The notes below the pieces were generated by a model that searched no databases, had not been told where the DNA came from, and saw only the letters and a program-made list of their open reading frames with translations. Of a DNA stretch of 32,219 nucleotides, positions 626 through 26,594 are shown piece by piece. Made by a program: the position numbers and the translations under genes. Within the stretch, counting starts at the first letter, position 1, and the number at the start of each line of letters is the position of its first letter. Source of the stretch: an uncultured Fidelibacterota bacterium (GTDB lineage: Bacteria > Fidelibacterota > Marinisomatia > Marinisomatales > UBA8229); contig CAJWIT010000015.1 of the NCBI GenBank assembly GCA_913041945.1, positions 1 through 32,219 of the forward strand, given 5' to 3'.

Positions 626-1735
626 TTAAACCAAACCGGTAATTTTTTCAATATCTGTTTCAGTTAAATATGGATGCATGGGTAAACTGAATATTCGCTC
701 GCTGGTTGGCTCAGATACTGGAAAATCTCCCTTCCGGTATCCTAATTTTGTAAACGCCGTCTGTAAGTGCAATGGTATCGGATAATATATTCCCGTAGGA
801 ATATCATGATTTTTTAATCTTTCCTGAATTTCTATTCGGTGATCCGAAGATTCTGCCACAATTGAATATTGTGCCCATGCTGAAACATATCCATCTGGTA
901 TAAAGGGAGTAATGACCTTGTTTTTTAGTCTTTCTGTATACTGAGAAGCCACTGCATTCCTCAATCTGATTTCCTCTGGGAAAATAGTCATTTTTTCCAG
1001 AAGGATAGCTGCCTGTAGCGTATCAAGGCGGCCATTGATCCCCACCCTCACATTGTCGTACTTATGTCCACCTTTGCCATGTACACGAATTGAAACAAGT
1101 TTTTCAGCCATGCTGTCTTCATTCGTAAAAATAGCTCCGCCATCTCCATAACAGCCTAACGGCTTAGCCGGAAAAAATGAAGTAGCTGCCATATTCCCAA
1201 AACTGCAGGCCATTTTCCCCTCGATGGATCCACCGAATCCCTGTGCTCCGTCTTCCAATACCAACAGATCATACTTTCTGGAAATGGAATCTATTTCAGG
1301 ATAATTCGCTGGCAGTCCGAATAAATCCACGGGCATGATTACTTTTGGTGTCAATTTACCTTCTTTTTTTGTCCTGTCAATTTCTTCAGCAAGTTTCAAT
1401 GGATTAATGTTGAATGTGTTCTCATCAATATCCACAAAGACCGGCGTGGCTCCCAAAAGTTGAATAACCTCTGCTGTAGCTATGAAGGTAAATGGAGGTG
1501 TAAACACAGCATCACCCGGACCTATATCCCACGCCATTAAGGCCATAAGCAGAGCATCTGTACCTGAAGAACAGGTAATACAATGTTTAACCTCTACAAA
1601 ATCAGCCAGCACCTGTTCCAATTCCTTAATTTCTGGACCCATGATATATTTACCATGCGCAAGCACAGTTTGAATTCTATCATCAATACCAGTTTTGATC
1701 TTTTCCTGCTGGGTTTTTAAATCAATAAACTGCAT
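626..1735 (-). CDS. wbpE: WbpE-like sugar-nucleotide aminotransferase (DegT/DnrJ/EryC1/StrS family)
   Basis: This is a PLP-dependent aminotransferase of 369 residues, the usual family length. The SSGTDAL cofactor-phosphate motif is near residue 56, the LEDGAQ motif near 160 and the Schiff-base lysine is K191 in FFPAKPLG. In the WbpA-B-E-D-I pathway this enzyme transaminates UDP-3-keto-GlcNAc-uronate, using glutamate, to UDP-GlcNAc(3NH2)A. The assignment rests on family features plus the presence of all four partner enzymes in the same locus. It lies at the 3' end of the minus-strand cluster, separated from wbpI by 206 bases that contain a broken duplicate of its own start region and an inverted-repeat element. 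The ATG has only a weak AGAGAG site some distance upstream. Confidence 0.88.
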   Translation of the reverse strand: MQFIDLKTQQEKIKTGIDDRIQTVLAHGKYIMGPEIKELEQVLADFVEVKHCITCSSGTDALLMALMAWDIGPGDAVFTPPFTFIATAEVIQLLGATPVFVDIDENTFNINPLKLAEEIDRTKKEGKLTPKVIMPVDLFGLPANYPEIDSISRKYDLLVLEDGAQGFGGSIEGKMACSFGNMAATSFFPAKPLGCYGDGGAIFTNEDSMAEKLVSIRVHGKGGHKYDNVRVGINGRLDTLQAAILLEKMTIFPEEIRLRNAVASQYTERLKNKVITPFIPDGYVSAWAQYSIVAESSDHRIEIQERLKNHDIPTGIYYPIPLHLQTAFTKLGYRKGDFPVSEPTSERIFSLPMHPYLTETDIEKITGLV

Positions 1736-1801
1736 AATTTATTCTCATATTATACTCTCTGCACCCTTCAACAAAATCTTCAATTAAATACACCACAACC
1801 A

Positions 1802-1880
1802 TGTCATTGCGAAGGAGCGGGTGCGACTGCGGCAATCTAATACCACGTAGATAGATCGCTTCGCTACGCTCGCGATGACA
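1802..1880. repeat. 79-bp inverted-repeat element, MITE/REP-like
   Basis: The element begins TGTCATTGCGAAGGAGCG and ends in CGCTCGCGATGACA, so the ends form an imperfect inverted repeat (TGTCATTGCGA against TGTCATCGCGA). GGCAATC and GATCGCTTCGC lie inside. It is GC-rich within an AT-rich intergenic region. From memory, interspersed repeats of the TGTCATTGCGAGGAGC type are widespread in many unrelated bacterial genomes. No transposase is present. It abuts the broken wbpE-like fragment exactly. Confidence 0.7.
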
Positions 1881-1933
1881 GAACGAATATCATCAATCTT
1901 TGCCTGATAAGTTTTCAAATCAATTAATTCCAT
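1881..1933 (-). pseudogene. Remnant duplicate of the wbpE 5' end
   Basis: Reading from the ATG at 1933 the sequence gives MELIDLKTYQAKIDDIRS, clearly related to the start of the intact wbpE product (MQFIDLKTQQEKIKTGIDDR) with four residues missing. The similarity also covers the bases just before the ATG (GAATAAAATG against GAATAAATTATG). Homology stops where the inverted-repeat element begins. The frame continues through the element and ends at a stop at 1784-1786, giving a 49-codon frame of which only the first 17-18 codons are wbpE-like. An AGGG site precedes the ATG, so it could still be translated, but no functional protein is expected. Confidence 0.7.
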
Positions 1934-1941
1934 TTTATTCC

Positions 1942-2985
1942 CTACGAAACGAAAAGATCGTCCCTGAAATTATTCTTAATTATGTCCACAATTTCTTCTG
2001 AAGCATTGCCATTGCCAAAAGGATTCGTAAAATCCCCATTATAAATTGTTGTCACATCCAAAGAATCTTCTTCCCTGACAATAGAATTTGATTTTTGCTC
2101 AACAGTCTCAATCCATTCTGTTTCATTTCTTAATGTAAAGCAATGTTTTCCATGCCAGAGAGCTTCCTTTTGTAAACCGCCGGAATCGGTGAGAACAAAC
2201 TGGGTATGTTTGACCAGACCCATTAACTCCAGCCAGCCCACAGGATCAATGAGCACTAAATTTTCAGGTATCGTAATAGAATATTCTTTAAGACACTTCT
2301 TTGTTCTTGGATGGATGGGATAAACAACTTTGAGAGCCACTTCACTGATCTGGCGAATACGTTTTTGAAGAACATCCTTTGTTGTATTCTCTGCCCTGTG
2401 CATGGTTAATAGGCAATATTCGCCATACAGATTATCATCCGGGAACTGATGTTCAAATTTCCTGAAAATATCATACATCACATCACCCACTACGTGCACA
2501 CCTGCAGTGATTCCCTCCTTTTTCAAATTTTCTTTTGAAACATCTGATGGACAAAATAACAGTGATGAGACATGATCCGTTAACACCCTGTTTATTTCCT
2601 CAGGCATTTTCCGATTAAATGAGCGCAGCCCTGCTTCAACGTGCCCGATAAGGATGTGCAGCTTTGATGCTGCCAGGGCACCGGCAAGTGTTGAATTTGT
2701 ATCTCCGTAAACTAAAACATAACCCGGGTTTTCTTTTTCAATAACCGGCTCAAGTTTTTTCAACATCTCCCCTGTCTGTTCACCATGTGTACCAGAACCG
2801 ACTTCAAGATTATATTTTGCTTCCGGAATCTCCAGTTCCTTGAAAAATAGTTCAGACATGTTGACATCGTAGTGTTGACCGGTATTGACTATCACTTCCT
2901 CAACTCCAGCACCTATTAAGGCGTGGGAAACAGGAGAAGCTTTGATGAACTGGGGCCGTGTACCGATAACGGTCAGGATCTTCAA
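1942..2985 (-). CDS. wbpI: WbpI-like UDP-GlcNAc(3NAc)A 2-epimerase
   Basis: This 347-residue protein belongs to the non-hydrolysing UDP-GlcNAc 2-epimerase family (GT-B fold). It has the N-terminal GTRPQFIKASP motif, NTGQHYD near 35, GDTNSTLAGA near 94, and HVEAGLRS plus MPEEINRVLTDH. The family epimerises C2 of the nucleotide sugar; the company of wbpA, B, D and E points to conversion of UDP-GlcNAc(3NAc)A to UDP-ManNAc(3NAc)A rather than the WecB reaction. The start must be TTG at 2985: no ATG lies near, the conserved MKILTVIGTRPQ begins here, and an in-frame stop lies just upstream. A GGGGG run about 11 bases upstream may serve as the ribosome site. It lies 21 bases after wbpD and is probably cotranscribed. 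Confidence 0.9.
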   Translation of the reverse strand: MKILTVIGTRPQFIKASPVSHALIGAGVEEVIVNTGQHYDVNMSELFFKELEIPEAKYNLEVGSGTHGEQTGEMLKKLEPVIEKENPGYVLVYGDTNSTLAGALAASKLHILIGHVEAGLRSFNRKMPEEINRVLTDHVSSLLFCPSDVSKENLKKEGITAGVHVVGDVMYDIFRKFEHQFPDDNLYGEYCLLTMHRAENTTKDVLQKRIRQISEVALKVVYPIHPRTKKCLKEYSITIPENLVLIDPVGWLELMGLVKHTQFVLTDSGGLQKEALWHGKHCFTLRNETEWIETVEQKSNSIVREEDSLDVTTIYNGDFTNPFGNGNASEEIVDIIKNNFRDDLFVS

Positions 2986-3006
2986 TGTTGGCTGTACCCC
3001 CGGATC

Positions 3007-3579
3007 TTATAATTCAATTAAGCGGTCGTTTATCTGCTGGTATTTTTTACAGGTGCTCATCCCATTTTCATCAAGCTCCAGCCGATGTCCTTTTTTATCC
3101 ACCCAGCCAACAATCTTACCGGGATTACCAATAACCAGGGCATGGCCAGGCACATCTTTTGTAACCACTGTTCCGGAGCCAATAAAGGAATATTCCCCAA
3201 GAGTCACTCCGCATACAATCGTAGCATTTGCACCAATAGAAGCTGACTTTTTTACAAGTGTTTTCAGATAAAATTCACTTCCCCGCTGCGGGAACTTTGA
3301 TCGTGGTAATTTAATATTCGTAAACACCATAGATGGACCACAGAATACATAATCTTCCAGTTCCACTCCTTCATAGATTGAAACATTATTCTGTACTTTA
3401 CATTTGTTTCCAATGATAACATTATTTCCAACGTTTACATTCTGTCCAAAAATGCAACCTTCGCCAATAACAGAACCGGACTGGACATGAGAAAAATGCC
3501 AGATTTTTGTTCCTTTTCCAATCTTTACGCCAGCATCAAGATATGAAGATTCATGAACAAAATAGTCTTTTTTACTCAT
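3007..3579 (-). CDS. wbpD: WbpD-like UDP-sugar N-acetyltransferase
   Basis: This is a 190-residue left-handed beta-helix acyltransferase with many hexapeptide-type repeats (for example VGNNVIIGNKCKVQNNVSI and IGANATIVCGVTLGEYSFIG). The length matches WbpD/WlbB enzymes, which use acetyl-CoA to acetylate the 3-amino group of UDP-GlcNAc(3NH2)A. The C-terminal GNPGKIVGWVDKKG is typical of the group. Its ATG overlaps the end of wbpB by eight bases, indicating translational coupling. These enzymes act as trimers in the cytoplasm. Confidence 0.9.
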   Translation of the reverse strand: MSKKDYFVHESSYLDAGVKIGKGTKIWHFSHVQSGSVIGEGCIFGQNVNVGNNVIIGNKCKVQNNVSIYEGVELEDYVFCGPSMVFTNIKLPRSKFPQRGSEFYLKTLVKKSASIGANATIVCGVTLGEYSFIGSGTVVTKDVPGHALVIGNPGKIVGWVDKKGHRLELDENGMSTCKKYQQINDRLIEL

Positions 3580-4543
3580 TACTTCCCTCCAGCAAACTTT
3601 CCGTGGCTGTTTCCAGGATTTTCATGACTTCTATCGCGTGCTCACTATTTGATATCTTTATCGATTCTCCATTCAGATGATCCACAAAATATTGCAGCTC
3701 CCTGGTGAGCGGCATACCATCCTCAAATCTCACATCCCTGGTTGGCCCGCTTCTTGGAATGGGTTTTCCATTATCCCAAGTAACACTCTTGTCATAAAAA
3801 ACCAGTGGTTTGCCTTCCAGGGAATCTTCAAATCTGATCATACCCTTGGAGCCAACTACAACAAAACGGTGCTCTTTAAACGGATGCAGCCAGCTGACGT
3901 AAATATGTCCCATCAACTTCTGACGGTATTCCAGAGTGGTAACCGTCGTATCATGGATCCCATTTTGCAATATATCCATGCCGCTGGAGTTGATCATTTC
4001 AGGATAAGAACCTGTGAGCCATTGGAAAAGAGCAACATCATGTGGAGCAAAACTCCAGAAGACATTTTCTTCTGTACGGATTGTTCCAAGATTAAGGCGG
4101 TTACTGTAAAGATACTGGAGATCACCCAGCGTTCCGTCCTCAATTAAATCTTTGATCTTTTGAAAAGCCGGATGAAACAGCAGAACATGTCCCACCATCA
4201 GGTTTACCTTGTTTTTCATTGATAGTTCGTGCAAACGTAAGGCATCAGCACTATTCATCGTGATCGGCTTTTCTACTAAAACATGATACCCGCTCTCGAT
4301 GATTTTTCGAGCTATCTCAAAATGGCTTTCAGCAGGAGTAGCCACGGTAAAACCGTCGAATCCATATTTCATTGCATCGTCCAGCCTTGTAAAGCAATCC
4401 GCGTTTGGATAAAGCGCTTTGAATGAGTCCAGAACCTTCTGGTCATGCTCTACAATACCGCCAAGATTACCTGAATTATGCAGGGTCCGAATGTGGTTTT
4501 TTCCCCAGAGGCCGGCACCGACTACGCATACTTTCTTTTTCAT
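3572..4543 (-). CDS. wbpB: WbpB-like UDP-GlcNAc-uronate 3-dehydrogenase (Gfo/Idh/MocA)
   Basis: This is a 323-residue NAD-dependent oxidoreductase with an N-terminal Rossmann motif VVGAGLWGKNH, the EKP motif (K92) and FAPHDVALFQWL with H168 in the substrate domain. Family members with this pattern oxidise C3 of UDP-GlcNAcA to the 3-keto compound, the substrate of WbpE. Its ATG overlaps the stop of rmlA in an ATGA arrangement (4540-4543), and its end overlaps wbpD, so rmlA-wbpB-wbpD form a tightly coupled unit. Confidence 0.88.
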   Translation of the reverse strand: MKKKVCVVGAGLWGKNHIRTLHNSGNLGGIVEHDQKVLDSFKALYPNADCFTRLDDAMKYGFDGFTVATPAESHFEIARKIIESGYHVLVEKPITMNSADALRLHELSMKNKVNLMVGHVLLFHPAFQKIKDLIEDGTLGDLQYLYSNRLNLGTIRTEENVFWSFAPHDVALFQWLTGSYPEMINSSGMDILQNGIHDTTVTTLEYRQKLMGHIYVSWLHPFKEHRFVVVGSKGMIRFEDSLEGKPLVFYDKSVTWDNGKPIPRSGPTRDVRFEDGMPLTRELQYFVDHLNGESIKISNSEHAIEVMKILETATESLLEGSNE

Positions 4544-5427
4544 TTCAGCAGCTTTTTCAGATAACGAAAATATCCGCTATCTCCCTTTGACTCCAGATAC
4601 TTGCTCAGGTCTTCCTTTTGTAACCAGCCTTTTCGGAAAGCAATCTCTTCAAGGCAGGACACCTTAAGCCCCTGTCGCTTTTCCAGTGCATGGATGAACT
4701 GGGATGCTTCTGTCATGGCTTCGAATGTTCCAGTATCCAGCCAGGCAAACCCCCTGCCCATGAGCTCAATTTTCAATTTCCCTTTTTCAAGGTAGGCCTG
4801 GTTTACAGAAGTAATCTCCAGTTCTCCCCTGTCAGACGGCTGTATATGTTTTGCTATTTGAATGACCTCATTCGTATAAAAATACAATCCAACAATCACA
4901 AAATTTGATTTTGGAGCCTGAGGTTTTTCCTCAATTCCAATCACGTCACCATTTTGATTGAATTCAGCTACACCATACCGCTCCGGATCCTGAACCTGAT
5001 AGCCAAAAATAACGGCATTACGGTCAGTTTCGACATTTTGTCGCGCACGTGATAAGATTTCTGGGAATCCAGCACCATAAAAAACGTTATCCCCAAGGAC
5101 AAGGCACGCATCATCACTGCCTATGAATTCCTCTCCAATCAAAAATGCCTGCGCCAGTCCGTCTGGCGAGGGCTGGACAGCATACGAAAAGGACAAACCA
5201 AACTGACTCCCATCTCCAAGTAATTGCTCATACAGGCCAATATCTTCCCGTGTACTGATTATGAGTATTTCCCGAATCTCTGCAAGCATGAGTGCAGAAA
5301 TGGGATAATAAACCATTGGTTTATCATAGATGGGGAGCAACTGCTTGGATACAGATTCCGTAACTGGATGAAGCCGTGTACCAAATCCTCCAGCTAAGAC
5401 AATACCTTTCATCGTTTGTTTCTTCAT
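4540..5427 (-). CDS. rmlA: Glucose-1-phosphate thymidylyltransferase (RmlA-like)
   Basis: This 295-residue nucleotidyltransferase has the signature GIVLAGGFGTRLHPVT followed by SKQLLPIYDKPMVYYP, plus LGDNVFYG, GVAEF and EEKPQAPKSNF, as in RmlA, which makes dTDP-glucose from dTTP and glucose-1-phosphate. The ATG at 5427 is preceded by GAGGT at good spacing; the internal methionine in MKGIVLAGG (residue 6) is a weaker choice. It is the first gene of the minus-strand unit. No rmlB, rmlC or rmlD is visible here, and the UDP-ManNAc(3NAc)A route does not need dTDP-glucose, so it must feed another sugar whose genes lie elsewhere. Confidence 0.9.
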   Translation of the reverse strand: MKKQTMKGIVLAGGFGTRLHPVTESVSKQLLPIYDKPMVYYPISALMLAEIREILIISTREDIGLYEQLLGDGSQFGLSFSYAVQPSPDGLAQAFLIGEEFIGSDDACLVLGDNVFYGAGFPEILSRARQNVETDRNAVIFGYQVQDPERYGVAEFNQNGDVIGIEEKPQAPKSNFVIVGLYFYTNEVIQIAKHIQPSDRGELEITSVNQAYLEKGKLKIELMGRGFAWLDTGTFEAMTEASQFIHALEKRQGLKVSCLEEIAFRKGWLQKEDLSKYLESKGDSGYFRYLKKLLK

Positions 5428-5504: not shown

Positions 5505-5570
5505 TTTCCCGCCAACTCGCGGCTCCGCCCCGTCAGTCCCATTGAACTGAGAAAGCAACGCAGTACAGAT
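5505..5570. repeat. GC-rich intergenic insert, possible interspersed-repeat remnant
   Basis: Within a very AT-rich spacer, this stretch contains GGGTTTCCCGCCAACTCGCG, CGGCTCCGCCCCGTCAG and AAGCAACGCAGT. The composition break and the CAACTCGCGGCTCCGCC core recall short interspersed repeats, but only one copy is visible here, so repeat status is a guess. Together with the adjacent terminator and the rmlA promoter it accounts for most of the 5428-5738 gap; nothing else is seen there. Confidence 0.3.
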
Positions 5571-5572
5571 AG

Positions 5573-5600
5573 AAAAAATCCCACTTATTTTCAGTGGGAT
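5573..5600 (-). terminator. Intrinsic terminator after the HATPase/DUF4325 regulator
   Basis: ATCCCACT and AGTGGGAT form a perfect 8-bp stem with a 7-base loop (5578-5600). On the minus strand the stem is followed directly by six U residues. It lies about 140 bases beyond the stop of the regulator gene and would insulate it from the rmlA operon, which therefore needs its own promoter. Confidence 0.8.
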
Positions 5601-5738
5601 CATTACTCTACATTATTTTATTGATTTCCTTTAATAATTGCACAAATAAAAGACGGCAATTTATGCTTTTAAAATCACTGGTAAACAATACTTCTTTCAT
5701 AAAAACGTAAACATTTGGGTTCGCAGTGATGAAACTTT

Positions 5739-6770
5739 TCATGAACTATAATTACTTCCATTATTTCTTACACCTGAGACAAGATTTTCTATGTGCACAT
5801 TTGCATTAATACACTCAATTTTTAGGTTAGGATGCTGGTTTTGGAACACACGGAATATCTCATCGGCAAAAGAATCCCCGATAAGCTTAATTCCCTTGAA
5901 ATCAATACAGACTTCATAAAACTTTTCCAGGTTCCTAAAGAGCCTGCGGGCCTGGGAGCGGGACATAAGGTTCTCAGAATCAAACCTGGCAAGGGAAACC
6001 GGGACCTCAGCCCTGTCAAATAAAGAATTGTTTGAGTCTGTAGAATATTTATTGAACACATTCTGAAGTGTATTATGAGAAGAGGTGGATACGTTCATTA
6101 ATACGGATGTTCCCCCCTTTGTGCTGCCTGATTTCACAACCTGATGCCCTTTGGAACTATCATACTTCCAGCATAATCCACCAGAATTGATCTGAACCGT
6201 ATCAAAGAGGTGAATTATTGAAAATATTCCATCACCTAGGTGAGTCTTTGGATTGGTTGTAAGCCTGCCTTTAGACAGCTCCAAAATAGCATGGTGTTGA
6301 TTCTCCAAATCAAAATGCTTCTTTATTTTTCGAAAAATTCCCACACCGTTATCACGAACATAAAGATGAACATTCCTATCGGTTATTTTCAATTTCAATG
6401 TGCATTCATCACCTGCAGAATGGGAAAGAACATTATTCACAATCTCCATAAATCCATATTCACAGATTTCTCTTATATTCGAAGAAAAACCGGATAAATG
6501 TGGAAATAAATGTTTCCGACCGATTGTATCTTCTTCAAGTTCTGGAGTTATTGTAATTGTCACCGTTTTTTGAACAATGGGCTTCAGCGTATAGTATCTG
6601 TCCTTTGTTTTCCCGTGAGCGGTGACTTTCCCTCCCTGGATCAAGACATACATATGCCTGAGAACAGCCTGGCGGGAAAGGCCAAACTTCCTGATCACAG
6701 TTTTTACAATGTCCTTTTGATGTGCTGTGAGATTATTGAGAATAAATTCTCTGATGGGGGAAAAACGCAT
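5739..6770 (-). CDS. Winged-helix/HATPase/STAS-like DUF4325 regulator
   Basis: This 343-residue protein has three parts. Residues 1-65 form a winged helix (KFGLSRQAVLRHMYVLIQGG). Residues about 85-230 form a GHKL ATPase with the N box EIVNN (109-113), G1 DNGVG (140-144), G2 GDGIF (179-183) and KGGTS near 218. Residues about 250-335 match the STAS-like DUF4325 family (GDSFADEIF near 298). It has no histidine-kinase dimerisation helix or receiver. GHKL plus STAS-like modules are usually a switch pair, as in anti-sigma/anti-anti-sigma systems; here both are joined to a DNA-binding domain, so an autonomous transcription switch is inferred. It sits between rmlA and wbpA on the same strand, has its own terminator, and direct repeats lie just before its start. 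GAGG is unusually close to the ATG. Confidence 0.8.
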   Translation of the reverse strand: MRFSPIREFILNNLTAHQKDIVKTVIRKFGLSRQAVLRHMYVLIQGGKVTAHGKTKDRYYTLKPIVQKTVTITITPELEEDTIGRKHLFPHLSGFSSNIREICEYGFMEIVNNVLSHSAGDECTLKLKITDRNVHLYVRDNGVGIFRKIKKHFDLENQHHAILELSKGRLTTNPKTHLGDGIFSIIHLFDTVQINSGGLCWKYDSSKGHQVVKSGSTKGGTSVLMNVSTSSHNTLQNVFNKYSTDSNNSLFDRAEVPVSLARFDSENLMSRSQARRLFRNLEKFYEVCIDFKGIKLIGDSFADEIFRVFQNQHPNLKIECINANVHIENLVSGVRNNGSNYSS

Positions 6771-6783
6771 ATCCTCGGCTATT

Positions 6784-6816
6784 TTATCAACATACTTTGG
6801 TTATATTATCAACATA
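6784..6816 (-). promoter_or_regulatory. Direct-repeat operator candidate before the regulator
   Basis: The 11-mer TATGTTGATAA (minus strand) occurs twice, at 6794-6784 and 6816-6806, exactly 22 bp apart or two helix turns, 14-46 bases before the regulator ATG. A third, near-identical copy (TAAGTTGATAA) lies at 6869-6859. The position and phasing suggest autoregulation by the winged-helix protein. Confidence 0.5.
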
Positions 6817-6848: not shown

Positions 6849-6869
6849 TCCAATATTTTTATCAACTTA

Positions 6870-7172
6870 AAAAAACATATTTATCAGCCTGAAGTGCATT
6901 TCTTTTTGTTTATAAATCAACCGTCAATACCTAGTATATATTATATATTATGTGTACTTATTGTGAACGTATGCCAGTCACAGCATATACATTTTCTTAA
7001 GGTAAATTCGATGAGTGAGAATTCGTAATAGTTTTGAGCTGGAATTTTATTACTATCCAGTCCCAGCCATCGAATTGTAACAGTCAAAAGCAATAATTAC
7101 AAATGCTCTACAAGAATTTCAGTTAATTGAGACTGTGACGCTCAGTGATGAAGATTTTTTGAGACGATTTAA
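6870..7172. other. Gene-free spacer with a long-range inverted repeat
   Basis: No credible gene is seen between the regulator promoter region and the end of wbpA. The spacer holds a perfect 9-bp inverted repeat, AATTCGATG at 7005-7013 and CATCGAATT at 7068-7076, enclosing GCTGG (7038-7042) and CCAGC (7063-7067). It has no U run, so it is not an intrinsic terminator on either strand. It may be a 3' structure of the wbpA transcript. The remaining bases are AT-rich without recognisable features. Confidence 0.35.
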
Positions 7173-8477
7173 TCAGGCTTTAATTACTTTGTTCGAATAA
7201 TTGAAACATCCTCTTGTATCCACAATCAAGCTGGCCTCTTTTTCAATAAGCTCATAATCAAAATCATCATGATCTGTGGCGAGGAGCACCAAATCTGCTG
7301 ACTTTAGTATTTCCGCATTCAACGCTTTTGATTCTAATTCAAATTGGTACTTTCTGGTGTGTGGTATTGTTTTAAAATATGGATCCGAATATTCCACAAC
7401 TGCACCCTTATCAATGAGACTTTCAATTAATACCAATGATGGTGATTCTCTTAAATCATCCACGTTTTTCTTATATGCCAAACCCAATATTAGAATTTGG
7501 CTGCCTTTGATAGATTTACCAACACTGTTTAGCGCTTCCCCCACTTTCTGCACCACGTAGGCTGGCATTGCTGTATTAATTTCACCAGCCAATTCGATGA
7601 AGCGAGTATCTATACCTACTTGCTTTGCTTTCCATGAGAGGTAAAAAGGATCGATAGGGATGCAGTGGCCGCCCAGGCCAGGGCCGGGATAGTATGGAGT
7701 GAACCCAAATGGTTTGGTAGCAGCAGCATTAATAACCTCATAAATATCAATGTCCATTTTATCAGCCACCATTTTGAGTTCATTCACCAGTCCGATGTTG
7801 ACGGCACGATGAATGTTTTCCAGGATTTTGGTCATTTCCGCAACTTTTGGCGAAGATACTGGCACCGTTTGATCCACGATTTGGTCATAGAGTGCTTTTG
7901 TCACTTCCAAACAGTTTTCTGTATAACCACTAACAACTTTTGGAATTGTTTTTGTGGTAAAATTTTTATTCCCCGGGTCTTCTCGTTCAGGTGAATAGCC
8001 AACGAAAAAGTTGGTGCCAATCTTAAAGCCTGCTTTTTCAACAACAGGGACGATTTCTTCTTCCGTTGTACCTGGGTAAGTGGTGCTTTCCAAGACAAGA
8101 AGTTGATTTTCCGTCAAATGTGGCTTGATAGATTGGAGTGTGCTGTGAATATAACTTAAATCCGGCTCATTGTGGACACCCAGTGGCGTGGGAACGCAAA
8201 TGAGAATGACAGCCGTACTGGGAATGTGATTGAAATCGCTGGTAGCCTTGAAACCATTCCTTACAATGGTGTCAATTAGTTTTGCATCGATATGCTTTAT
8301 GTAAGATTCGCCACTGTTAAGCATTTGCACTTTTTTGCCGTCCACGTCAAACCCCATAACCCTAAAGCCTTCTTCCGAAAAACGGATTGCCAGAGGGAGA
8401 CCTACATAACCAAGACCAATTATACCGATTGTTGATTTCCGATTGATAATTTGTGATGTTAGATTATTAATTGACAT
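7173..8477 (-). CDS. wbpA: WbpA-like UDP-N-acetylglucosamine 6-dehydrogenase
   Basis: This 434-residue nucleotide-sugar dehydrogenase has the NAD motif GIIGLGYVGLPLA at 18-30, TYPGTTEE, the GYSPEREDPGN signature, and the catalytic cysteine C272 in GPGLGGHCIPIDP; KKNVDDLRESPS lies in the C-terminal domain. GYSPER and GGHCIPIDP place it with the UDP-HexNAc dehydrogenases (WbpA/WbpO/TviB type) rather than UDP-glucose dehydrogenases. It oxidises UDP-GlcNAc to UDP-GlcNAcA, the first step of the route completed by wbpB, E, D and I. It is separated from those genes by the regulator and about 1.7 kb, and has its own promoter, so entry into the pathway may be controlled separately. The ribosome site is weak. 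Confidence 0.9.
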   Translation of the reverse strand: MSINNLTSQIINRKSTIGIIGLGYVGLPLAIRFSEEGFRVMGFDVDGKKVQMLNSGESYIKHIDAKLIDTIVRNGFKATSDFNHIPSTAVILICVPTPLGVHNEPDLSYIHSTLQSIKPHLTENQLLVLESTTYPGTTEEEIVPVVEKAGFKIGTNFFVGYSPEREDPGNKNFTTKTIPKVVSGYTENCLEVTKALYDQIVDQTVPVSSPKVAEMTKILENIHRAVNIGLVNELKMVADKMDIDIYEVINAAATKPFGFTPYYPGPGLGGHCIPIDPFYLSWKAKQVGIDTRFIELAGEINTAMPAYVVQKVGEALNSVGKSIKGSQILILGLAYKKNVDDLRESPSLVLIESLIDKGAVVEYSDPYFKTIPHTRKYQFELESKALNAEILKSADLVLLATDHDDFDYELIEKEASLIVDTRGCFNYSNKVIKA

Positions 8478-8551
8478 TATTTAACTGGCACCCAATTCAT
8501 TTTATCTCCTAATTCTAATACGTTTTGCAGATAATTGAAAAAACTCTGCTT

Positions 8552-8579
8552 ATTATCAAGCGAATTTACACATTGTCAA
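8552..8579 (-). promoter_or_regulatory. Sigma-70-type promoter of wbpA
   Basis: On the minus strand TTGACA (8579-8574) is followed after 16 bases by GATAAT (8557-8552), predicting a transcript start near 8545 and a leader of roughly 70 bases before the wbpA ATG. The -10 lies inside TTGATAAT, which resembles the repeated box before the neighbouring regulator. Confidence 0.55.
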
Positions 8580-8695
8580 CGCAAAGTAAATAAAAATACT
8601 ACCTTTCCCTGCTGTATTTCCGCCTTCATGAAGCACTGATCTTAGAGTTTCTGCCAAGGAGTTTTGATTGATAAATGCGTAAACCAAGATCATTA

Positions 8696-10408
8696 TTAAA
8701 GATACCCAAACTGTTTTATCTTTAAAAAGATATCCTGAACAAGGATCTCCGGTTCAATCTCGCTGGAGTCAATGACAATTTCCGGGTGTTCCGGCGGTTC
8801 ATAAGGATCGCTGATCCCCGTAAACTCTTTGACGATTCCTTCCCTTGCCTTGGCATAAAGACCCTTCGCATCCCTTTCTTCACAGACTTCCAGTGGTGTA
8901 TTCACATGCACTTCCATATAACCGCCATAGTGTGAGATCAGTTCCCGGTTAAATTTCCGATCCAATTGATAGGGCGCAATGGGAGCACAAATAGCAATGC
9001 CTCCATTTTTGGTGATCTCACTGGCAACAAATCCAATCCGCTGAACATTGATGGAACGATGTTCTTTTGAAAAACCCAACTCGCTGGAGAGATGGGTCCG
9101 GACGATGTCCCCATCCAACAGTGTCACCGGACGGCTGCCTTCTTCCAACATCTTCACTAAAAGGCCCTTCGCTAGCGTGGATTTTCCTGAACCGGACAAT
9201 CCGGTAAAAAAAATGGTTAATCCTCGATTGGTTAACGGCGGACGGGACGCTTCCAGCTCCTGAGCCACTTCCCTGTAGCTGAACCATTCAGGGATCCCTT
9301 TCCCTTCGTCTAACAATTGTCTGAGCTCAGCCCCTGAGATTGTTTGATAATCAACACCTTTTTCTACTCCATCAATGGTTCCGTAACGATCTTCTAAAGG
9401 CAAATAGACCATAAATTTGAAAGGCACCATTTCAATGCCAATCTCTGCTTGGTGTTTCATCAAAAGTTCCTGTGCATCATAAGGACCGTAAAAAGGCTCA
9501 TCATTTTTATCATTTCCCGGCCCTGCATGATCGCGACCGACAATGAAATAATTACAGCCGTAGTTCTTTCGGATTATAGCGTGCAACACTGCTTCCCTGG
9601 GTCCACCCATGCGCATAGCCAGGGGTAACAAGCTCATCATAACAGAATTTTCAGGATACTTTTTCAAGACATGCTGGTAGCAGCGAACCCGGGTATAATG
9701 GTCTACGTCACCAGGTTTGGTCATGCCAACCACAGGATGGATCAGCAGGTTTGCATCCAGGTCCAGGGACGCACGCATGGTCATTTCCACATGAGCCCGA
9801 TGAAGGGGATTACGCGTTTGAAACGCCACAACCTTATCCCAGCCTTTTTCAGTGAAAATGGATCTCAATTCTTCAGGCGTATGTCGATCCTTTTGATAAT
9901 CATAATGGTGCGGGAGTAAAATCCCTTCGATTTGGCCGCCTATATAATTTTTTTCCCCCATATTGAACAGATAATTGACAGCAGGATGGGCTGTGTCAGT
10001 TGTGCCAAACACAACAGATGCTTCTTTTTCAAGGTCAGGCTGCCAGATATCGCCCACAGTCAGGATAGCGAGGGCAAAACCTTCTTTATCCCGAAGGGTG
10101 ATTTTTTCTCTGCCTTTGATTTCTTCTGCGAATTGATCAGAGACATCCAGGGTAATGGGTATAGGCCAAAGGGTGCCGTCCGCAAGGCGCATAGATTCCA
10201 ATACAGATTCATAATCATTTTTTATCATGAAACCGTTCAAAGGAGAAAAGGCACCGTTCAGTAACAATTCCAGGTCACAAATCTGGCGGTCAGTTAATGT
10301 CCAGGATGGATACTCATTGGACTCATCCTTCAAGGCAGAAAAATCGCTTGAATCCGCCAGCAAATTAACCAGGCAACCTCCGTGAGGTTCAATAAGTGTA
10401 ATTGACAT
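8696..10408 (-). CDS. Bifunctional sulfate adenylyltransferase/APS kinase
   Basis: This 570-residue fusion makes PAPS from sulfate in two steps. Residues 1 to about 380 are ATP sulfurylase, with QTRNPLHRAH at 197-206 and GRDHAGPG at 291-298. Residues about 395-570 are APS kinase, with the P-loop GLSGSGKST at 403-411, LDGD at 431-434 and a CAPIAPY segment where the APS-binding loop lies. Both halves keep their nucleotide-binding motifs, so both reactions are likely. GGGAAGAG precedes the ATG at good spacing. No APS or PAPS reductase or cysteine genes are in view. The neighbourhood suggests, but does not prove, that PAPS serves sulfation of a surface polysaccharide. Confidence 0.93.
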   Translation of the reverse strand: MSITLIEPHGGCLVNLLADSSDFSALKDESNEYPSWTLTDRQICDLELLLNGAFSPLNGFMIKNDYESVLESMRLADGTLWPIPITLDVSDQFAEEIKGREKITLRDKEGFALAILTVGDIWQPDLEKEASVVFGTTDTAHPAVNYLFNMGEKNYIGGQIEGILLPHHYDYQKDRHTPEELRSIFTEKGWDKVVAFQTRNPLHRAHVEMTMRASLDLDANLLIHPVVGMTKPGDVDHYTRVRCYQHVLKKYPENSVMMSLLPLAMRMGGPREAVLHAIIRKNYGCNYFIVGRDHAGPGNDKNDEPFYGPYDAQELLMKHQAEIGIEMVPFKFMVYLPLEDRYGTIDGVEKGVDYQTISGAELRQLLDEGKGIPEWFSYREVAQELEASRPPLTNRGLTIFFTGLSGSGKSTLAKGLLVKMLEEGSRPVTLLDGDIVRTHLSSELGFSKEHRSINVQRIGFVASEITKNGGIAICAPIAPYQLDRKFNRELISHYGGYMEVHVNTPLEVCEERDAKGLYAKAREGIVKEFTGISDPYEPPEHPEIVIDSSEIEPEILVQDIFLKIKQFGYL

Positions 10409-12031: not shown

Positions 12032-12052
12032 TAATTGGAAGGAAAAGCATAT

Positions 12053-12457
12053 ATGCAGAAGCAAGATAAACAACGGAATGGCTTTACCATGATTGAAATT
12101 ATGGTGGTCGTGGTCATTATCGCTATTTTGGCAGCTTTCGCGGTGCCAATTTACATTGATTACGTTGAAAGTGCCCGCGCCTCGGAAGCAAAATCCGTTA
12201 TAAGCAGTATCTCCAATGCGTCCGTAATGTTCTATCAGTCTAATGGTGAATGGCCATCCTCGGTGGATGATCTTGAACGTCAAGGACAATTGGACCTGGA
12301 GCTTTCCACCAAACTTAAATGGCAGTTTGAATTACAGCTGCCGGAAATAGTAACTGCTACCAGCACAGAGGAAATGGCCGGTGGAGCAGGGAAAGTCATC
12401 CAGTACAATAGAGAATTGGGGAAATACACAGGATACGGAACACCAGAAGAAGAATAA
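12053..12457 (+). CDS. Type IV pilin (major or pseudopilin-like)
   Basis: From the ATG at 12053 the product has 134 residues: leader MQKQDKQRNG, then the prepilin motif FTMIEIMVVVVIIAILAAFA with glutamate at +5 and a hydrophobic N-terminal helix, followed by a short globular part. A TTG further upstream is open in frame, but GGAAGGA at 12037-12043 serves the ATG. It would be cleaved and methylated by the prepilin peptidase encoded at the end of the operon. As first gene of the operon it may be the main pilin, though its C-terminal half is short and lacks the usual disulfide cysteines, so a minor role is possible. Confidence 0.88.
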   Translation: MQKQDKQRNGFTMIEIMVVVVIIAILAAFAVPIYIDYVESARASEAKSVISSISNASVMFYQSNGEWPSSVDDLERQGQLDLELSTKLKWQFELQLPEIVTATSTEEMAGGAGKVIQYNRELGKYTGYGTPEEE

Positions 12458-13522
12458 ATGAACTCAACTGTGGATATCAACGAATTATTGAAATATGCTT
12501 TGGAGAGTGGTGCTTCTGACTTGCACCTGAGTGTAGGATCCAAACCAATGGTGCGGATCGATGGAAGCATAAAACCTCTCAACTTAGACAAATTAACTCG
12601 GGATTCAATGACATCCATTCTTCCCCAGGTGATGAATGCAGAACAGATTAAAAAGTTTGAACAGGAGAAGGAAATTGACTTTTCAACCAAACTGGATAAC
12701 AAAGGACGCTTTCGGGTAAATTTCTTCAACCAGCTGAAAGGAATAGCTGGTGTTTTTAGAACAATCCCTGAGGTGATCCGCAGTTTTGAAGATTTGGGTA
12801 TTCCACCAGTGTTAAGAGATTTAACTCTTATGGATCATGGTCTCATTTTACTGACAGGACCTACTGGTTCAGGGAAAAGCACTACACTGGCAACTATGGT
12901 GAACCATATTAATGAAAATCGCGCCTGCCACATAATCACGATAGAAGACCCCGTAGAGTATTTTCATTCGTCAAAAGAAAGCCTTATAAATCAAAGGGAG
13001 CTGGGGACAAACACCCATAGTTTTTCCAATGCCCTTCGATCTGCTTTGAGAGAAGATCCAGATGTAATATTAGTGGGAGAGATGCGGGACCTGGAAACAA
13101 TTTCTCTCGCCCTTACTGCATCGGAGACTGGACATCTTGTTATGTCAACCCTGCATACAGGAAGTGCCGTCAAAGCAATTGATCGTATCATTGATATGTA
13201 TCCTGAAGGACAGAAAACTCAAATTAGGGCTATGATGTCTGAAAGTTTGGAAGCGGTTATTGCCCAGAAACTGCTTCCTAGAAAAGATGGTGAAGGCCGT
13301 ATTCCTGCGTGTGAGGTACTGATCTCCTCCACCGCAGTACGGAACCTGATCCGTGAAGACCGGATTTACCAAATTCCTTCTTTGATTCAATCCGGCGGGA
13401 CTGAAGGGATGCAGGCACTGGATCAGGACCTCCAGCGATTGGTTTCACAAGGATTGGTTGAACGATCTGTAGCCCAGGGGATTGCTGAAAATCCGAAACT
13501 ATTTCAATCTAATGTTCTGTAG
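12458..13522 (+). CDS. pilT: Pilus retraction ATPase PilT
   Basis: This 354-residue secretion ATPase has an N-terminal PAS-like domain (GASDLHL near 18), Walker A GPTGSGKST at 134-142, Walker B ILVGEMRD at 204-211, STLHTGSA near 230 and the retraction-ATPase motif AVRNLIRE in the C-terminal part. Length and the last motif separate it from PilB. PilT hydrolyses ATP on the inner face of the cytoplasmic membrane to depolymerise the pilus. Its presence marks the operon as type IV pilus rather than type II secretion. The ATG follows the pilin stop codon directly. Confidence 0.95.
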   Translation: MNSTVDINELLKYALESGASDLHLSVGSKPMVRIDGSIKPLNLDKLTRDSMTSILPQVMNAEQIKKFEQEKEIDFSTKLDNKGRFRVNFFNQLKGIAGVFRTIPEVIRSFEDLGIPPVLRDLTLMDHGLILLTGPTGSGKSTTLATMVNHINENRACHIITIEDPVEYFHSSKESLINQRELGTNTHSFSNALRSALREDPDVILVGEMRDLETISLALTASETGHLVMSTLHTGSAVKAIDRIIDMYPEGQKTQIRAMMSESLEAVIAQKLLPRKDGEGRIPACEVLISSTAVRNLIREDRIYQIPSLIQSGGTEGMQALDQDLQRLVSQGLVERSVAQGIAENPKLFQSNVL

Positions 13523-13530
13523 CCTAGTAC

Positions 13531-14079
13531 ATGTATTTATCTGTGTATAAAAAACCTTTTTTGAAACTCAGGAAATTGAAGAGAGAATCAAATCCGAAAG
13601 AAGATATTTATCATTTCACACCAGGTATTTCTTCAGGTTTTACTTTTATCGAAGTGATGGTTGCCGTGGTGATCATATCTATCACAGCATTGGGAATAAT
13701 GCATGGTACCGTGCATTCCAGAGGGATTTTGCGGTCCTTGGAACTCCGGGAGCGGGCTACGGAAGAACTGACCAACTACATGGAATACTGGCAGGGCCGG
13801 ATAGCTGATGATAGACTGAGTATGGTTGAGAAAGCTGGAGATAATCTCGGCAAACAGATTTACCTTGTGGGAAACAGCAATTCGAATTTAAAAGTCCCTG
13901 CCAAGCTATATTATAACCTTGTAAAACAGAATTCTAAATATAATAGCCCCGTGTACAATGCTTATAAAATTACAGTCCGGATAACTTGGCAAGACTATTT
14001 TCTTCAGGAAAACGATCCTTATGTTGGAGATGTAGTTCACGAACGAATCTTAGAAACTGTAATGATAGCTTATAACTAA
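13531..14079 (+). CDS. Minor pilin, PilV-like, with a long leader
   Basis: This 182-residue protein has the prepilin motif SSG followed by FTFIEVMVAVVIIS, with glutamate at +5. The leader before the cleavage site is 36 residues and rich in Lys/Arg, much longer than most type IV prepilin leaders; no better ATG lies closer and the ribosome site before 13531 is weak, so a later non-ATG start is possible. The helix and ALGIMHGTVHSR segment resemble PilV/GspI-type minor pilins. The stop overlaps the next ATG by one base. Confidence 0.78.
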   Translation: MYLSVYKKPFLKLRKLKRESNPKEDIYHFTPGISSGFTFIEVMVAVVIISITALGIMHGTVHSRGILRSLELRERATEELTNYMEYWQGRIADDRLSMVEKAGDNLGKQIYLVGNSNSNLKVPAKLYYNLVKQNSKYNSPVYNAYKITVRITWQDYFLQENDPYVGDVVHERILETVMIAYN

Positions 14080-14672
14080 TGAAAAAATCACAAAAAATAA
14101 ACGGGTTTACATTGGTGGAAATGAGCGCAACGATCGTTGTCATTGGGATTATTGGACTGGGATTAATTATGACATTACGGACCACCTTTCTTCACTACAG
14201 CACTGATTATGTACGCCAGGAAATTCGTCAGTATGGCAATATAGTGATGAGGGAGTTGAATGAAAAAATAAACAATGCTCAACAGGTTAGTTTTGGTGTT
14301 CATCAAAATGGCTTTGCACTTATTCAAATTTGGGATAGCTCATCCAATCCAGTTCCCTCGGAAACCATCAGGGCAAATAGTGATGAAGGGATATTGGTTA
14401 ATAATTCGCCTCTTATGGGAGGAACATTTCAGTTACCCACAGTAGGCCGTTTCCGGGATAACGATCAGCACAGGGTGTCACTTATTGATTTTACATGGAG
14501 TCAAGAAACGGATCCAAGACCGTCCTTAAACAACTTTAACAATAATATGATAACAATAGCATTAACTATACAATTGGATAGCGATGTACTTACTGATGAA
14601 GAAACCGTAGCGGAAGAATTTTATTTTAGTAAATCTGTGTTTGTAGCAAATAACTACATCCAAACACTATGA
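14079..14672 (+). CDS. Minor pilin, PilW/GspJ-like
   Basis: This 197-residue protein has a short leader MKKSQKING and the prepilin motif FTLVEMSATIVVIGIIGLGL with glutamate at +5. Position after the PilV-like gene and before the PilX-like gene, and the size, suit a PilW/GspJ-type subunit that helps prime the pilus tip. Its start overlaps the previous stop and its end overlaps the next start by four bases. Confidence 0.8.
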   Translation: MKKSQKINGFTLVEMSATIVVIGIIGLGLIMTLRTTFLHYSTDYVRQEIRQYGNIVMRELNEKINNAQQVSFGVHQNGFALIQIWDSSSNPVPSETIRANSDEGILVNNSPLMGGTFQLPTVGRFRDNDQHRVSLIDFTWSQETDPRPSLNNFNNNMITIALTIQLDSDVLTDEETVAEEFYFSKSVFVANNYIQTL

Positions 14673-16993
14673 AAAAGAAGTTTCATAACAGTTCAGGTTC
14701 TGTTGCCCCACTGGCAATATTGTTTACATTTTTAAGTATGTTATTGATAGCTGCCTATTTGGGTCAAAGCTCTACGATAGCCACGATGGAAAAATATCGG
14801 TTTGCCGAACTTCGGGCTCAATATGTTGCGGAAGCAGGGTTAAACCGTGAAGCGGTAGATTATTTGCCTTACCTGGATGCCGATACCACAATCCTTGTAG
14901 GTAAGCAGGGAATGGAATTTGGAGAAGACTCCGATGGAGATCCACTTGGCGTTTATAAAAATATTTCCTGTTATACCCAATTGATGGATGGTTCAACCCG
15001 CAAGGAATTTGTAGCAAAAAGCACAGGTGAAGTGAATTATGCTTCCACAGTAGGATCGACGGTAACCGTGCAAAAAACTGTTTTTATGTCAATGGTTCCT
15101 TCCGGCTTTGAGGAATTTATGTATTTTACCAATGATGAAGAACCTTTTGGACCAAATCCATCGTCCTTTGTGAGTTTCGGAGACGGTGATGAGCTGGAGG
15201 GACGTGTCCATACCAATAGTCCCACGGTTACTTTTAGTGAATGGGGATGCCCTGAATTTACTGGCACATTTACTGTCACTGAACCCATCTCCTACGAAGG
15301 AGATACAGGCTGCCTGGATGAGATGGAGGACGAAGACGGTGTTTCAATAATAGATACTGTTGAATCAATTATATTCCCGCCGGATAATTCTATCGGCATT
15401 TTGAAAGCAAATGCCACAAGGGTATTCACTGCTGATGACATGATCACTTTTTCCCCTACCCAGAAAGACACTCTCATCATGACCGAGATTGAATTTGATG
15501 AATCAGGTGGATTTTGGGCTACCCAGTGGTGGTATCTGGTGCCACCGGTAGTAGAAGATGCCAGTACAAGTATAGGATTTTACTATGATAGTATCGAAGT
15601 AGCGGCTCCCTTCTCTCCTATTGAGCCATACTCTTTAGGCCTGGTTCTCGCAGATGGAACTGATGCCTATGATCCAGTTGAGAATTACGATAATGCGGTT
15701 TGGTTATATGTAAGCACCAACGATATTAACGGCAATGATAATACTGCCGCAATGAGCACGTTTGAATCAAATGATGTGGTGTCCATTGAATCAGAAGTAG
15801 ACCCAGATAAGAAAGTCGATTTTACGATCCTAAATTCCAACCAGGTTAGTAGTTTCCTATGGAGATTACAAATTAATACTTTTTTACCTATAAATTATGA
15901 AGGTCCGCCTGGCATTGGATTTTTGGAGGATGAACCTGTCACTCTATCCCGCCAGGGGAGTTCTAGCACCCTAAATGCTCATGTCCCCTTTAATGAATAT
16001 CAATATTTTCATAATCATTCAGAGCCAACTGGGTTTGGTGGCCCAAATGAGAATACAATATGCCAGGCAGATGGTTTTCAGCATTTCGATTTTCGTTATT
16101 GGCTGTGCAATGACCGCTATAGTGTGAATGGCTGTTATGAGGATCTCAATGGAGATGGAGAATATGATGAAAATGAAGATAAGTCCTTTGTGCTGTTTCA
16201 ACGGACTTTCTTTCCCTATTCAGGGCCTGAGGTTATCTATATTAAGGGAGGCCAGGTCTTGGTCCACGGTACTGTTAAGGGAGCCTACACTGTAGTGACA
16301 GATTATGTGATCGAATACCGCCGACATGATAATCCCATTATTGTTGATCAGATTTGGGGAAATATCTGGCTTATTGATGATATCAGGTATGAAGATTCCA
16401 ATACAAGTTCATCTTATTTAACAGATGGAGAAGTTATGCATCCCGATGATGGCGGAACAGACAATGTGTTGGGGTTGGTAGCAGGGAGCAATATCATCAT
16501 TGCGAATACCACACCAAATGGCGCACGGAACCGATATTTAAATCCAAGCAGTCGTCATATAGTTATTAACGGTGCCTTAATGGCACTGCAGGGAGCTTTT
16601 ATTAGCCATTATTGGCAGAATTCGGTTCAATCAGGGCAATGTTTTTACTGCGCACAGCCAAATCCAGGGGACGTATGGGAAAATTCATTAGGAGATGGAC
16701 GGGGCGGCCATCGGAATCCTGTCAGAGATGAAGGATTACCAGGTGCTTATACAAACAACCAGGACAACAGAGGAAAAGTAAACCTATGGGGGTCCATTGT
16801 TCAGCAGGAAAGAGGCTACATGATGAGGAATAACCCTGGTCCATATACTTCTGGAGATATTGGATATGAAAAAAATTATCATTATGACTACAATCTATTA
16901 GACAATCCCCCACCCTACTATCCAGACCAAAGTACAGTCAGCGGTGTGATCGTGTTGAAAATAAAATCTTATGGAACTCAACCGGGGAGTTAG
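14669..16993 (+). CDS. Very large PilX/GspK-like minor pilin (DUF4900-like)
   Basis: The 774-residue protein begins MKKKFHNSSG, then a hydrophobic helix starting SVAPLAILF and the AELRAQYVAEAGLNRE segment typical of PilX-type proteins. Position +5 is leucine, not glutamate, as in GspK-type tip subunits. The segment YFTNDEEPFGPNPSSF and GRVHTNSP resembles DUF4900 proteins. A DLNGDGEYDENED loop near residue 490 looks like a calcium-binding EF-hand-type loop, and FYCAQP adds cysteines. The bulk is beta-rich and would be exposed at the pilus tip, possibly as adhesin. Known PilX proteins are usually under 250 residues. Confidence 0.78.
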   Translation: MKKKFHNSSGSVAPLAILFTFLSMLLIAAYLGQSSTIATMEKYRFAELRAQYVAEAGLNREAVDYLPYLDADTTILVGKQGMEFGEDSDGDPLGVYKNISCYTQLMDGSTRKEFVAKSTGEVNYASTVGSTVTVQKTVFMSMVPSGFEEFMYFTNDEEPFGPNPSSFVSFGDGDELEGRVHTNSPTVTFSEWGCPEFTGTFTVTEPISYEGDTGCLDEMEDEDGVSIIDTVESIIFPPDNSIGILKANATRVFTADDMITFSPTQKDTLIMTEIEFDESGGFWATQWWYLVPPVVEDASTSIGFYYDSIEVAAPFSPIEPYSLGLVLADGTDAYDPVENYDNAVWLYVSTNDINGNDNTAAMSTFESNDVVSIESEVDPDKKVDFTILNSNQVSSFLWRLQINTFLPINYEGPPGIGFLEDEPVTLSRQGSSSTLNAHVPFNEYQYFHNHSEPTGFGGPNENTICQADGFQHFDFRYWLCNDRYSVNGCYEDLNGDGEYDENEDKSFVLFQRTFFPYSGPEVIYIKGGQVLVHGTVKGAYTVVTDYVIEYRRHDNPIIVDQIWGNIWLIDDIRYEDSNTSSSYLTDGEVMHPDDGGTDNVLGLVAGSNIIIANTTPNGARNRYLNPSSRHIVINGALMALQGAFISHYWQNSVQSGQCFYCAQPNPGDVWENSLGDGRGGHRNPVRDEGLPGAYTNNQDNRGKVNLWGSIVQQERGYMMRNNPGPYTSGDIGYEKNYHYDYNLLDNPPPYYPDQSTVSGVIVLKIKSYGTQPGS

Positions 16994-17003
16994 GTAATAA
17001 CAT

Positions 17004-18056
17004 ATGCAAATTGGATTGGACATTGGACGCCAGTATGTAAAAATGGTCGTGGTGGAAAAAACACGGGATGGGTTAAAACTATTGAATGTTGACAGCAAAT
17101 TAATCCCGGAGAAAAACAAACCCTTCGATCCGGAAAATATTGATACTCCCTTAATTGTAATGGCGGTAAAAGAATTAATTGATCGGATGAGTTTAAAACC
17201 AAAACATCTCCGAAATCTGACTACTGGGATTGGCGGTTCCAATATTTCTATCAAACAAATTACCACCATGGACATGTCCACCGATGAATTGAAAGCCTCC
17301 ATGATGTTTGAAGCAAGAAAACATATGCCAATGGATGGCACCGATGCGGTGATCGATTATCAGGTACTTGGTCCCAATAGGTTTGAAGCTGATAAAATAG
17401 ACGTAATTCTGGTTGCCTGTACCAATGGTGTAAGAACCAGCCATCAAAAATTACTGAAGAACATCGGTTTAAAAGCAGACATTATTGATTCAGAGCCCAT
17501 CGCGATTATGAATGCATTTTTACAAAGCCACCAGTCTTCAGAGGAAGGAGCTGTGATTTTACTGGACATAGGTGCAGTCTCAACCTCCTTGGTTGTCTGG
17601 GGAGAACAGGACATGTTTTTTACCCGGGATATCCCCAGGGGGGTACATGATCTCGTTAAAGATATTGCAACAAAAAGATCCATAACCTATAGTGAAGCAC
17701 AGGATTATTTGCAGAACGAAGGAGCTGCTGCCCTTGAAGTTGAACAACCAGAAGATACTAGTCTTATTTCAGTAGCAGAACGCTCATCCCTTGATATTTT
17801 CCTAGAAGATGTACGGAGAACATTGCGATTTTATACAAAGAATTCCAAACAAAGTCATTTCTCAGCCTTGTATCTGAGTGGAGGAGGCGGAAATGTTAAA
17901 GGCTTAAAGGAGTATATGGAAGAAAATTTGCAGATAAAATCTCAGGTCATGGACCCCTTCGCCAACTTGGAAACGAAGGAGAAGATCTCAATTGAAGACC
18001 CTGCTCAATATGCTGTAGCCACGGGCCTGGCAGTACGAAAAGGGTTTGAAGCATGA
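17004..18056 (+). CDS. pilM: Pilus assembly protein PilM
   Basis: This 350-residue actin-like ATPase has an N-terminal phosphate motif IGLDIGRQYVKMVVV, a second phosphate motif VILLDIGAVSTSLVVW near 185, and LYLSGGGGNVKGL near 290 as adenosine motif. PilM forms the cytoplasmic ring of the alignment complex and binds the N-terminal tail of PilN. The start lies ten bases after the large minor pilin gene, and the end overlaps pilN as ATGA. Confidence 0.92.
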   Translation: MQIGLDIGRQYVKMVVVEKTRDGLKLLNVDSKLIPEKNKPFDPENIDTPLIVMAVKELIDRMSLKPKHLRNLTTGIGGSNISIKQITTMDMSTDELKASMMFEARKHMPMDGTDAVIDYQVLGPNRFEADKIDVILVACTNGVRTSHQKLLKNIGLKADIIDSEPIAIMNAFLQSHQSSEEGAVILLDIGAVSTSLVVWGEQDMFFTRDIPRGVHDLVKDIATKRSITYSEAQDYLQNEGAAALEVEQPEDTSLISVAERSSLDIFLEDVRRTLRFYTKNSKQSHFSALYLSGGGGNVKGLKEYMEENLQIKSQVMDPFANLETKEKISIEDPAQYAVATGLAVRKGFEA

Positions 18057-21168: not shown

Positions 21169-21177
21169 GGCTCTGTT

Positions 21178-26525: not shown

Positions 26526-26594
26526 ATAAGCAAATTTTATCAAGCAGGCAGTGTGTAAGTAAGTTTCATTAATTTTTCCTATAAATAAGATCAA

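Follow-up and report, generated by a model that had tools for sequence, protein, structure and literature searches.

The window analyzed here is a stretch of 32,219 nucleotides from an uncultured Fidelibacterota bacterium, and its minus strand contains a gene (5739..6770; complete ORF with ATG start, 343 aa) whose product combines a winged-helix (wHTH) domain, a GHKL ATP-binding domain, and a DUF4325 STAS-like domain on one chain. Judging from sequence comparisons and structure prediction, we consider it probable, at roughly 60%, that this protein is a one-protein autorepressor that has been recruited as regulator of an exopolysaccharide (EPS) locus and that probably acts on the DNA as a head-to-tail array.

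Domain architecture and known GHKL/STAS switches

The wHTH domain comprises residues 1-65 (6576..6770, minus strand), the GHKL domain residues 70-230 (6081..6563, minus strand), and the DUF4325 domain residues 263-337 (5760..5984, minus strand; Pfam 273-325). DUF4325 (PF14213) was detected by Pfam with E=5.4e-14 and 52.1 bits versus a gathering score of 23; the domain carries the motifs SRSQA and IGDSFADEIFRV, and the best solved structure for its profile is Escherichia VapS (9z7o), a weak match (hmmsearch E 0.013). The N-terminus gave a weak ArsR-type HMM match (residues 5-64, E=9e-4), and in the AlphaFold2 model, which was built from 13 homologues (pLDDT 88.4, pTM 0.82) and has the domain order wHTH, GHKL, STAS-like, a wHTH is confidently predicted with helices at 5-13, 21-29, and 33-45 and a wing at 49-62 (block pLDDT 84-94). 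The GHKL region scored below the curated Pfam cut-offs with both HATPase_c_2 (9e-5) and HATPase_c (2e-4), but the assignment holds because the fold confirms a HATPase domain: Foldseek searches with the model matched the GHKL part to the anti-sigma kinases SpoIIAB/RsbW (E 2.5e-5), whose fold it shares, and the N-terminus to wHTH proteins. The protein has the Bergerat fold with the three boxes of GHKL ATPases/kinases, namely the N-box E109-x3-N113, the G1 box D140-x-G142-x-G144, and the G2 box G179DG. Pfam, AlphaFold2, and Foldseek thus agree with the preliminary description, which had placed a wHTH, a GHKL ATP site, and DUF4325 on one 343-residue chain, and all motifs of the site are intact as it stated.

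GHKL domains and their partner STAS-type domains normally reside on separate proteins. The closest characterized relatives are the two-protein systems CapK/CapS and VapK/VapS (2026). CapK has the architecture HTH-STAS-GHKL and CapS the architecture STAS-wHTH (EMBO J, 2026; PMC13373217). Both systems consist of separate proteins, use a phospho-serine switch, and are activated by ssDNA; deletion of the CapK HTH had no effect, and CapS is an autoregulator that binds cooperatively to sites at its promoter and possibly extends its assembly on the DNA (PMC13373217). CapK/CapS resembles the regulator in that HTH, GHKL, and STAS modules control a neighboring operon, but it comprises two proteins, palindromic sites, a conserved phospho-serine, and mostly immune operons, whereas the regulator is a single chain (wHTH-GHKL-DUF4325), its sites are direct repeats, the serine is not conserved, and the loci are EPS loci. 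As a single gene stands in place of adjacent kinase and STAS-wHTH substrate genes, as 23 of 27 members lack the phosphoacceptor serine, and as the neighbors are EPS genes in the near clade and unrelated genes in distant members instead of immune operons, the regulator was not assigned to CapK/CapS; it may, however, work like a merged CapK/CapS. The initial statement that no characterized example exists therefore stands for the one-chain order but not for the modules, which CapK/CapS share (PMC13373217). In the case of VapK/VapS/VapC, VapS (PDB 9z7o) aligns with the DUF4325 part, but this is a toxin-antitoxin system of separate proteins without DNA-binding output, and the regulator locus has no toxin gene. 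SpoIIAB/SpoIIAA and RsbW/RsbV are similar in the GHKL fold and the STAS-like partner domain, but they are separate chains that control sigma factors and have no DNA-binding domain. The nearness of the GHKL fold to SpoIIAB/RsbW could also mean that the protein sequesters a sigma factor while its HTH only autoregulates. We regard this as very improbable, since conservation in the EPS clade is highest in the HTH and the operator, and neither a sigma factor gene nor a separate STAS partner gene was noticed adjoining the regulator in the loci read.

A phospho-switch of the CapK/CapS or SpoIIAB/SpoIIAA type could in principle operate within one chain, the GHKL domain phosphorylating Ser300 of a neighboring DUF4325 domain and thereby breaking a DNA-bound oligomer. 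The window protein has the intact N-box residue Glu109 and a serine in IGDSFADE (Ser300) at approximately the place of SpoIIAA Ser58, its fold matches SpoIIAB, its DUF4325 domain weakly matches VapS, and CapS and VapS are switched by phosphorylation (PMC13373217). However, a serine occupies this position in only four of the 27 readable members (the window and three others), with A, G, P, or T in the remaining 23, and G048 as well as all tabulated members of family f7 have lost the N-box Glu. Cis-phosphorylation was therefore rejected as a family-wide mechanism; it would at most apply to the window's genus, and we hold the phospho-switch to be unlikely.

The GHKL boxes are intact across the broad family, whereas among EPS-linked members the N-box Glu is lost as described, and f7 also loses the G2 motif. 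The domains shift in parallel: the wHTH ranks first in conservation in the EPS-linked clade (mean identity 64% versus 38% for GHKL) and last in the broad family (25% versus 41%). The decay of GHKL together with the rise in wHTH conservation suggests to us that a sensor using ATP has shifted in function towards regulation by DNA binding. The window copy appears to stand near the intact end of this series. Control by ATP is plausible here but is not a conserved trait, and the nucleotide dependence proposed at the outset is weakly supported: it draws on the intact motif set of the window but conflicts with the Glu and G2 decay in EPS-linked relatives.

Iteron array and promoter candidates

The repeats that had been reported upstream of the gene were found (6782-6794, 6804-6816, and 6857-6869), and they exceed chance. 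On the minus strand, a repeat search revealed iteron 1 (ATGTTGATAAAATA, 6780..6793), which is followed at 22 bp by iteron 2 (ATGTTGATAATATA, 6802..6815), after a further 53 bp by iteron 3 (AAGTTGATAAAAAT, 6855..6868), and after another 22 bp by a weak iteron 4 (AGGCTGATAAATAT, 6877..6890). GTTKAYAAT iterons with a 21-22 bp period directly precede the start codon of every near homologue and of several distant ones from other phyla. All 15 Marinimicrobia-type homologues examined have 2-4 GTTKAYAAT-like sites within ~120 bp before the start codon, where 0.06-0.15 are expected. A motif-free analysis of repeat lags in 26 upstream regions showed a maximum at 21-22 bp and multiples of it at 43-44, also for loci of other phyla or phages in which the repeat sequence is a different one. 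Of 12 distant loci, five retain the motif as a spaced pair, and in some others (e.g., L087 and L089) the 21-22 bp spacing is kept with another repeat sequence; differing repeats at constant spacing would fit, by eye, the expectation that operator and wHTH evolve together.

As a search with the single exact TTATCAACATA was uninformative (four matches, the same as the control), paired patterns were used. The stringent paired pattern gave 23 matches in 14 whole genomes (~31 Mb), all of them at the regulator gene and in 14/14 genomes (21 upstream and two at the 3' end of the gene), compared to two matches with the reversed control pattern; a looser pattern gave extra scattered matches in several genomes. 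At the stringent pattern, the pair of iterons 1 and 2 is unique genome-wide. The repeats are operator-like iterons and putative binding sites, and conserved sites of this kind at the own promoter are a mark of autoregulated transcription factors.

In the f7 genomes, iteron 1 provides TTGAYA and iteron 2 provides TATAAT, 17-18 bp apart; the iterons form both promoter hexamers, and the operator therefore overlies the promoter. In the window, the best promoter match, a sigma-70-like TTCACA-16-TATAAT (6940..6967, minus strand; 11/12, consensus match only), lies upstream of the iterons, which counts against the autorepressor reading, and this match is weak because the region has fewer promoter-like sites than shuffled sequences. 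No further array at the EPS genes was convincing as a second operator. A marginal candidate operator, GTTGACAAT and CTTGATAAT 20-21 bp apart, is located at ~8550-8580 before the UDP-sugar dehydrogenase gene (ugd), and single 9-mers like these are expected about once per window from base composition. Control of the EPS genes would therefore run via the regulator's own promoter or via this marginal pair.

Exopolysaccharide linkage, leader element, and distribution

The sugar-nucleotide surroundings noticed earlier were borne out by the identity of the neighbors, all on the minus strand. The regulator gene sits between ugd (WbpA/Ugd type; 7173..8477) and a gene for an RmlA-type nucleotidyltransferase (4540..5427), and GFO/IDH, hexapeptide transferase, Epimerase_2, and DegT genes of a UDP-amino-sugar type pathway follow (626..4543). 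The sulfurylase/APS kinase gene at 8696..10408 also occurs in the EPS operon of the relative L025. Farther away, the window contains a large set of type IV pilus/type II secretion-like genes (12035-28612, plus strand) that includes a 1207-aa Big_1 Ig-like protein (21178-24801), and a protein that combines a FGE-sulfatase domain with N-terminal MORN-like repeats (28715-29989, minus strand).

In G048, ugd directly follows the regulator, and in f7 a NusG paralogue gene is divergent from a regulator-cpsB-SLBB-wzc series (CpsB/CapC, SLBB, Wzc-type). The EPS linkage is weaker in G001 (only the adjacent sulfurylase/APS kinase), G152 (contig end), and G006, where degT is 2.5 kb off behind small HicAB-like genes; this HicAB-like pair lies at 2415-2838 of locus L022. 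In G008, G012, G025, and L003 there are no EPS genes beside the regulator, which counts against our preferred reading, and the regulator is missing from some EPS/cpsB loci within the order (the g28 genomes of f7 and the f3 genomes), these absences being from draft genomes and no proof of loss. Nevertheless, EPS linkage is maintained across several genera in four families. Random neighborhoods had been named in advance as an argument against a self-contained local regulator: the near clade is found in EPS loci, so that this reading stands there, together with the conserved array and the regulator being the sole DUF4325 protein, but distant homologues, even of the same order, have unrelated neighbors and no EPS genes.

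Between the regulator and rmlA, an intrinsic-terminator-like hairpin (5577..5601, minus strand) lies 3' of the regulator gene and separates it from an ops/JUMPstart-like element (GACTGACGGGGCGGAGC, 5522..5538, minus strand) and rmlA; this hairpin is a further point against the recruited autorepressor. The element belongs to a conserved leader, CAGTT(n)TGTGACTGACGGGGCGGAGCC, in the interval that separates the regulator from the following EPS gene. In the ten sequences aligned, GGCGGAGC is invariant, and it comes after a CAGT..ACTG hairpin ahead of the EPS genes. The leader 17-mer occurs about once per genome, with 8 of 11 matches right behind the regulator gene, and f3 genomes, which lack the regulator, have a variant ahead of cpsB. 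Rfam gave no matches in the window. The element is similar to E. coli ops (GGCGGTAGCGTG; PMC5995543), with the core reading GGCGGAGC where the RfaH/ops system has GGCGGTAGC. A NusG paralogue was found in 10 of the 12 genomes searched, usually beside cysS outside f7; in G000 it is encoded near 12014-12337 of C9. The element is possibly a recruitment site for this paralogue. The comparison with RfaH/UpxY-type NusG paralogues and ops/JUMPstart, which draws on the presence of a paralogue in most genomes and of the element before EPS genes, is a resemblance only. Linkage of the paralogue gene to the EPS locus is confined to f7.

The regulator is carried by 14 of 101 related genomes, as a single copy and as the only DUF4325 protein, except in G034, whose second copy is on a contig almost identical to one of G047. 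A phylum-wide search added only G152. Distant full-architecture relatives (30-37% identity) were found in viral-collection contigs and in an Oscillospiraceae MAG, and the fused architecture is therefore widespread and not a one-off. Direct tblastn searches of phage and plasmid collections gave no matches to P0001 or to the L077 homologue, PADLOC gave no convincing defense assignment, and literature naming DUF4325 or STAS-like domain-containing proteins contained incidental mentions.

This patchy presence would also fit a selfish or phage-carried autoregulated cassette, a moron, that regulates only itself and lies in EPS loci by chance. Two distant homologues (L079, L084) are indeed moron-like single genes within phage structural/late regions, and the paired array otherwise occurs only at the regulator gene. 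In G008, G012, and G025 (loci L014, L031, and L032), arrays flank the gene on both sides, the 3' copy being in direct orientation and overlapping the last codons; the spacers are alike between the array copies in two of the three genomes, which suggests duplication or mobility. A gene-less array is present in a prophage late region of G012 (L141, ~7860-7905, G012:C97), oriented against the phage genes. However, a chance location agrees poorly with an EPS linkage that spans several genera and four families with the same layout in f7, with the shift of constraint to the wHTH in the EPS-linked clade, and with the same ops-like element following the gene in most of this clade, and we consider the moron rather unlikely.

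Proposed mode of action and implications

The recruited autorepressor could work as follows. The wHTH would bind the GTTKAYAAT direct repeats, two helical turns apart and just before its own start codon, and the regulator would most likely repress its own promoter, as we infer from the overlap of operator and promoter hexamers in the f7 relatives. Since direct repeats lie on one face of the helix, the protomers are expected to be arranged head to tail, and the chain may be built by the GHKL domain of one protomer contacting the DUF4325 domain of the next, as in the known GHKL-STAS contact. The chain would become looser or tighter with occupancy of the ATP pocket or through another ligand. Within the order, which comprises Marinimicrobia-related MAGs, exopolysaccharide loci would have recruited the cassette, and it may act there as a leader gene: transcription from the derepressed promoter would pass through the terminator and the ops-like NusG-paralogue site into the EPS genes. 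As the near relatives are found inside surface-polysaccharide clusters, the regulator is probably the local on/off switch of these clusters. A more far-reaching idea, which we find doubtful, is a widespread one-chain CapK/CapS-like family that assembles head to tail on direct repeats via GHKL-DUF4325 contacts. It would place surface polysaccharide under a type of switch that in other systems responds to ssDNA arising from phage or DNA damage, and would thus serve a capsule response to phage attack.

The findings that go beyond the preliminary description are the conserved operator-like iterons, the near-clade EPS linkage, the ops-like element, and the loss of serine and Glu with constraint on the wHTH. 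The regulator would be an uncharacterized GHKL/STAS switch encoded by one gene, with a putative operator at hand for in vitro tests, and as the ATP sites of this one family grade from intact to degenerate, the question of what the ATP site contributes can be asked directly. For uncultured bacteria, the gene represents a candidate for exopolysaccharide control.
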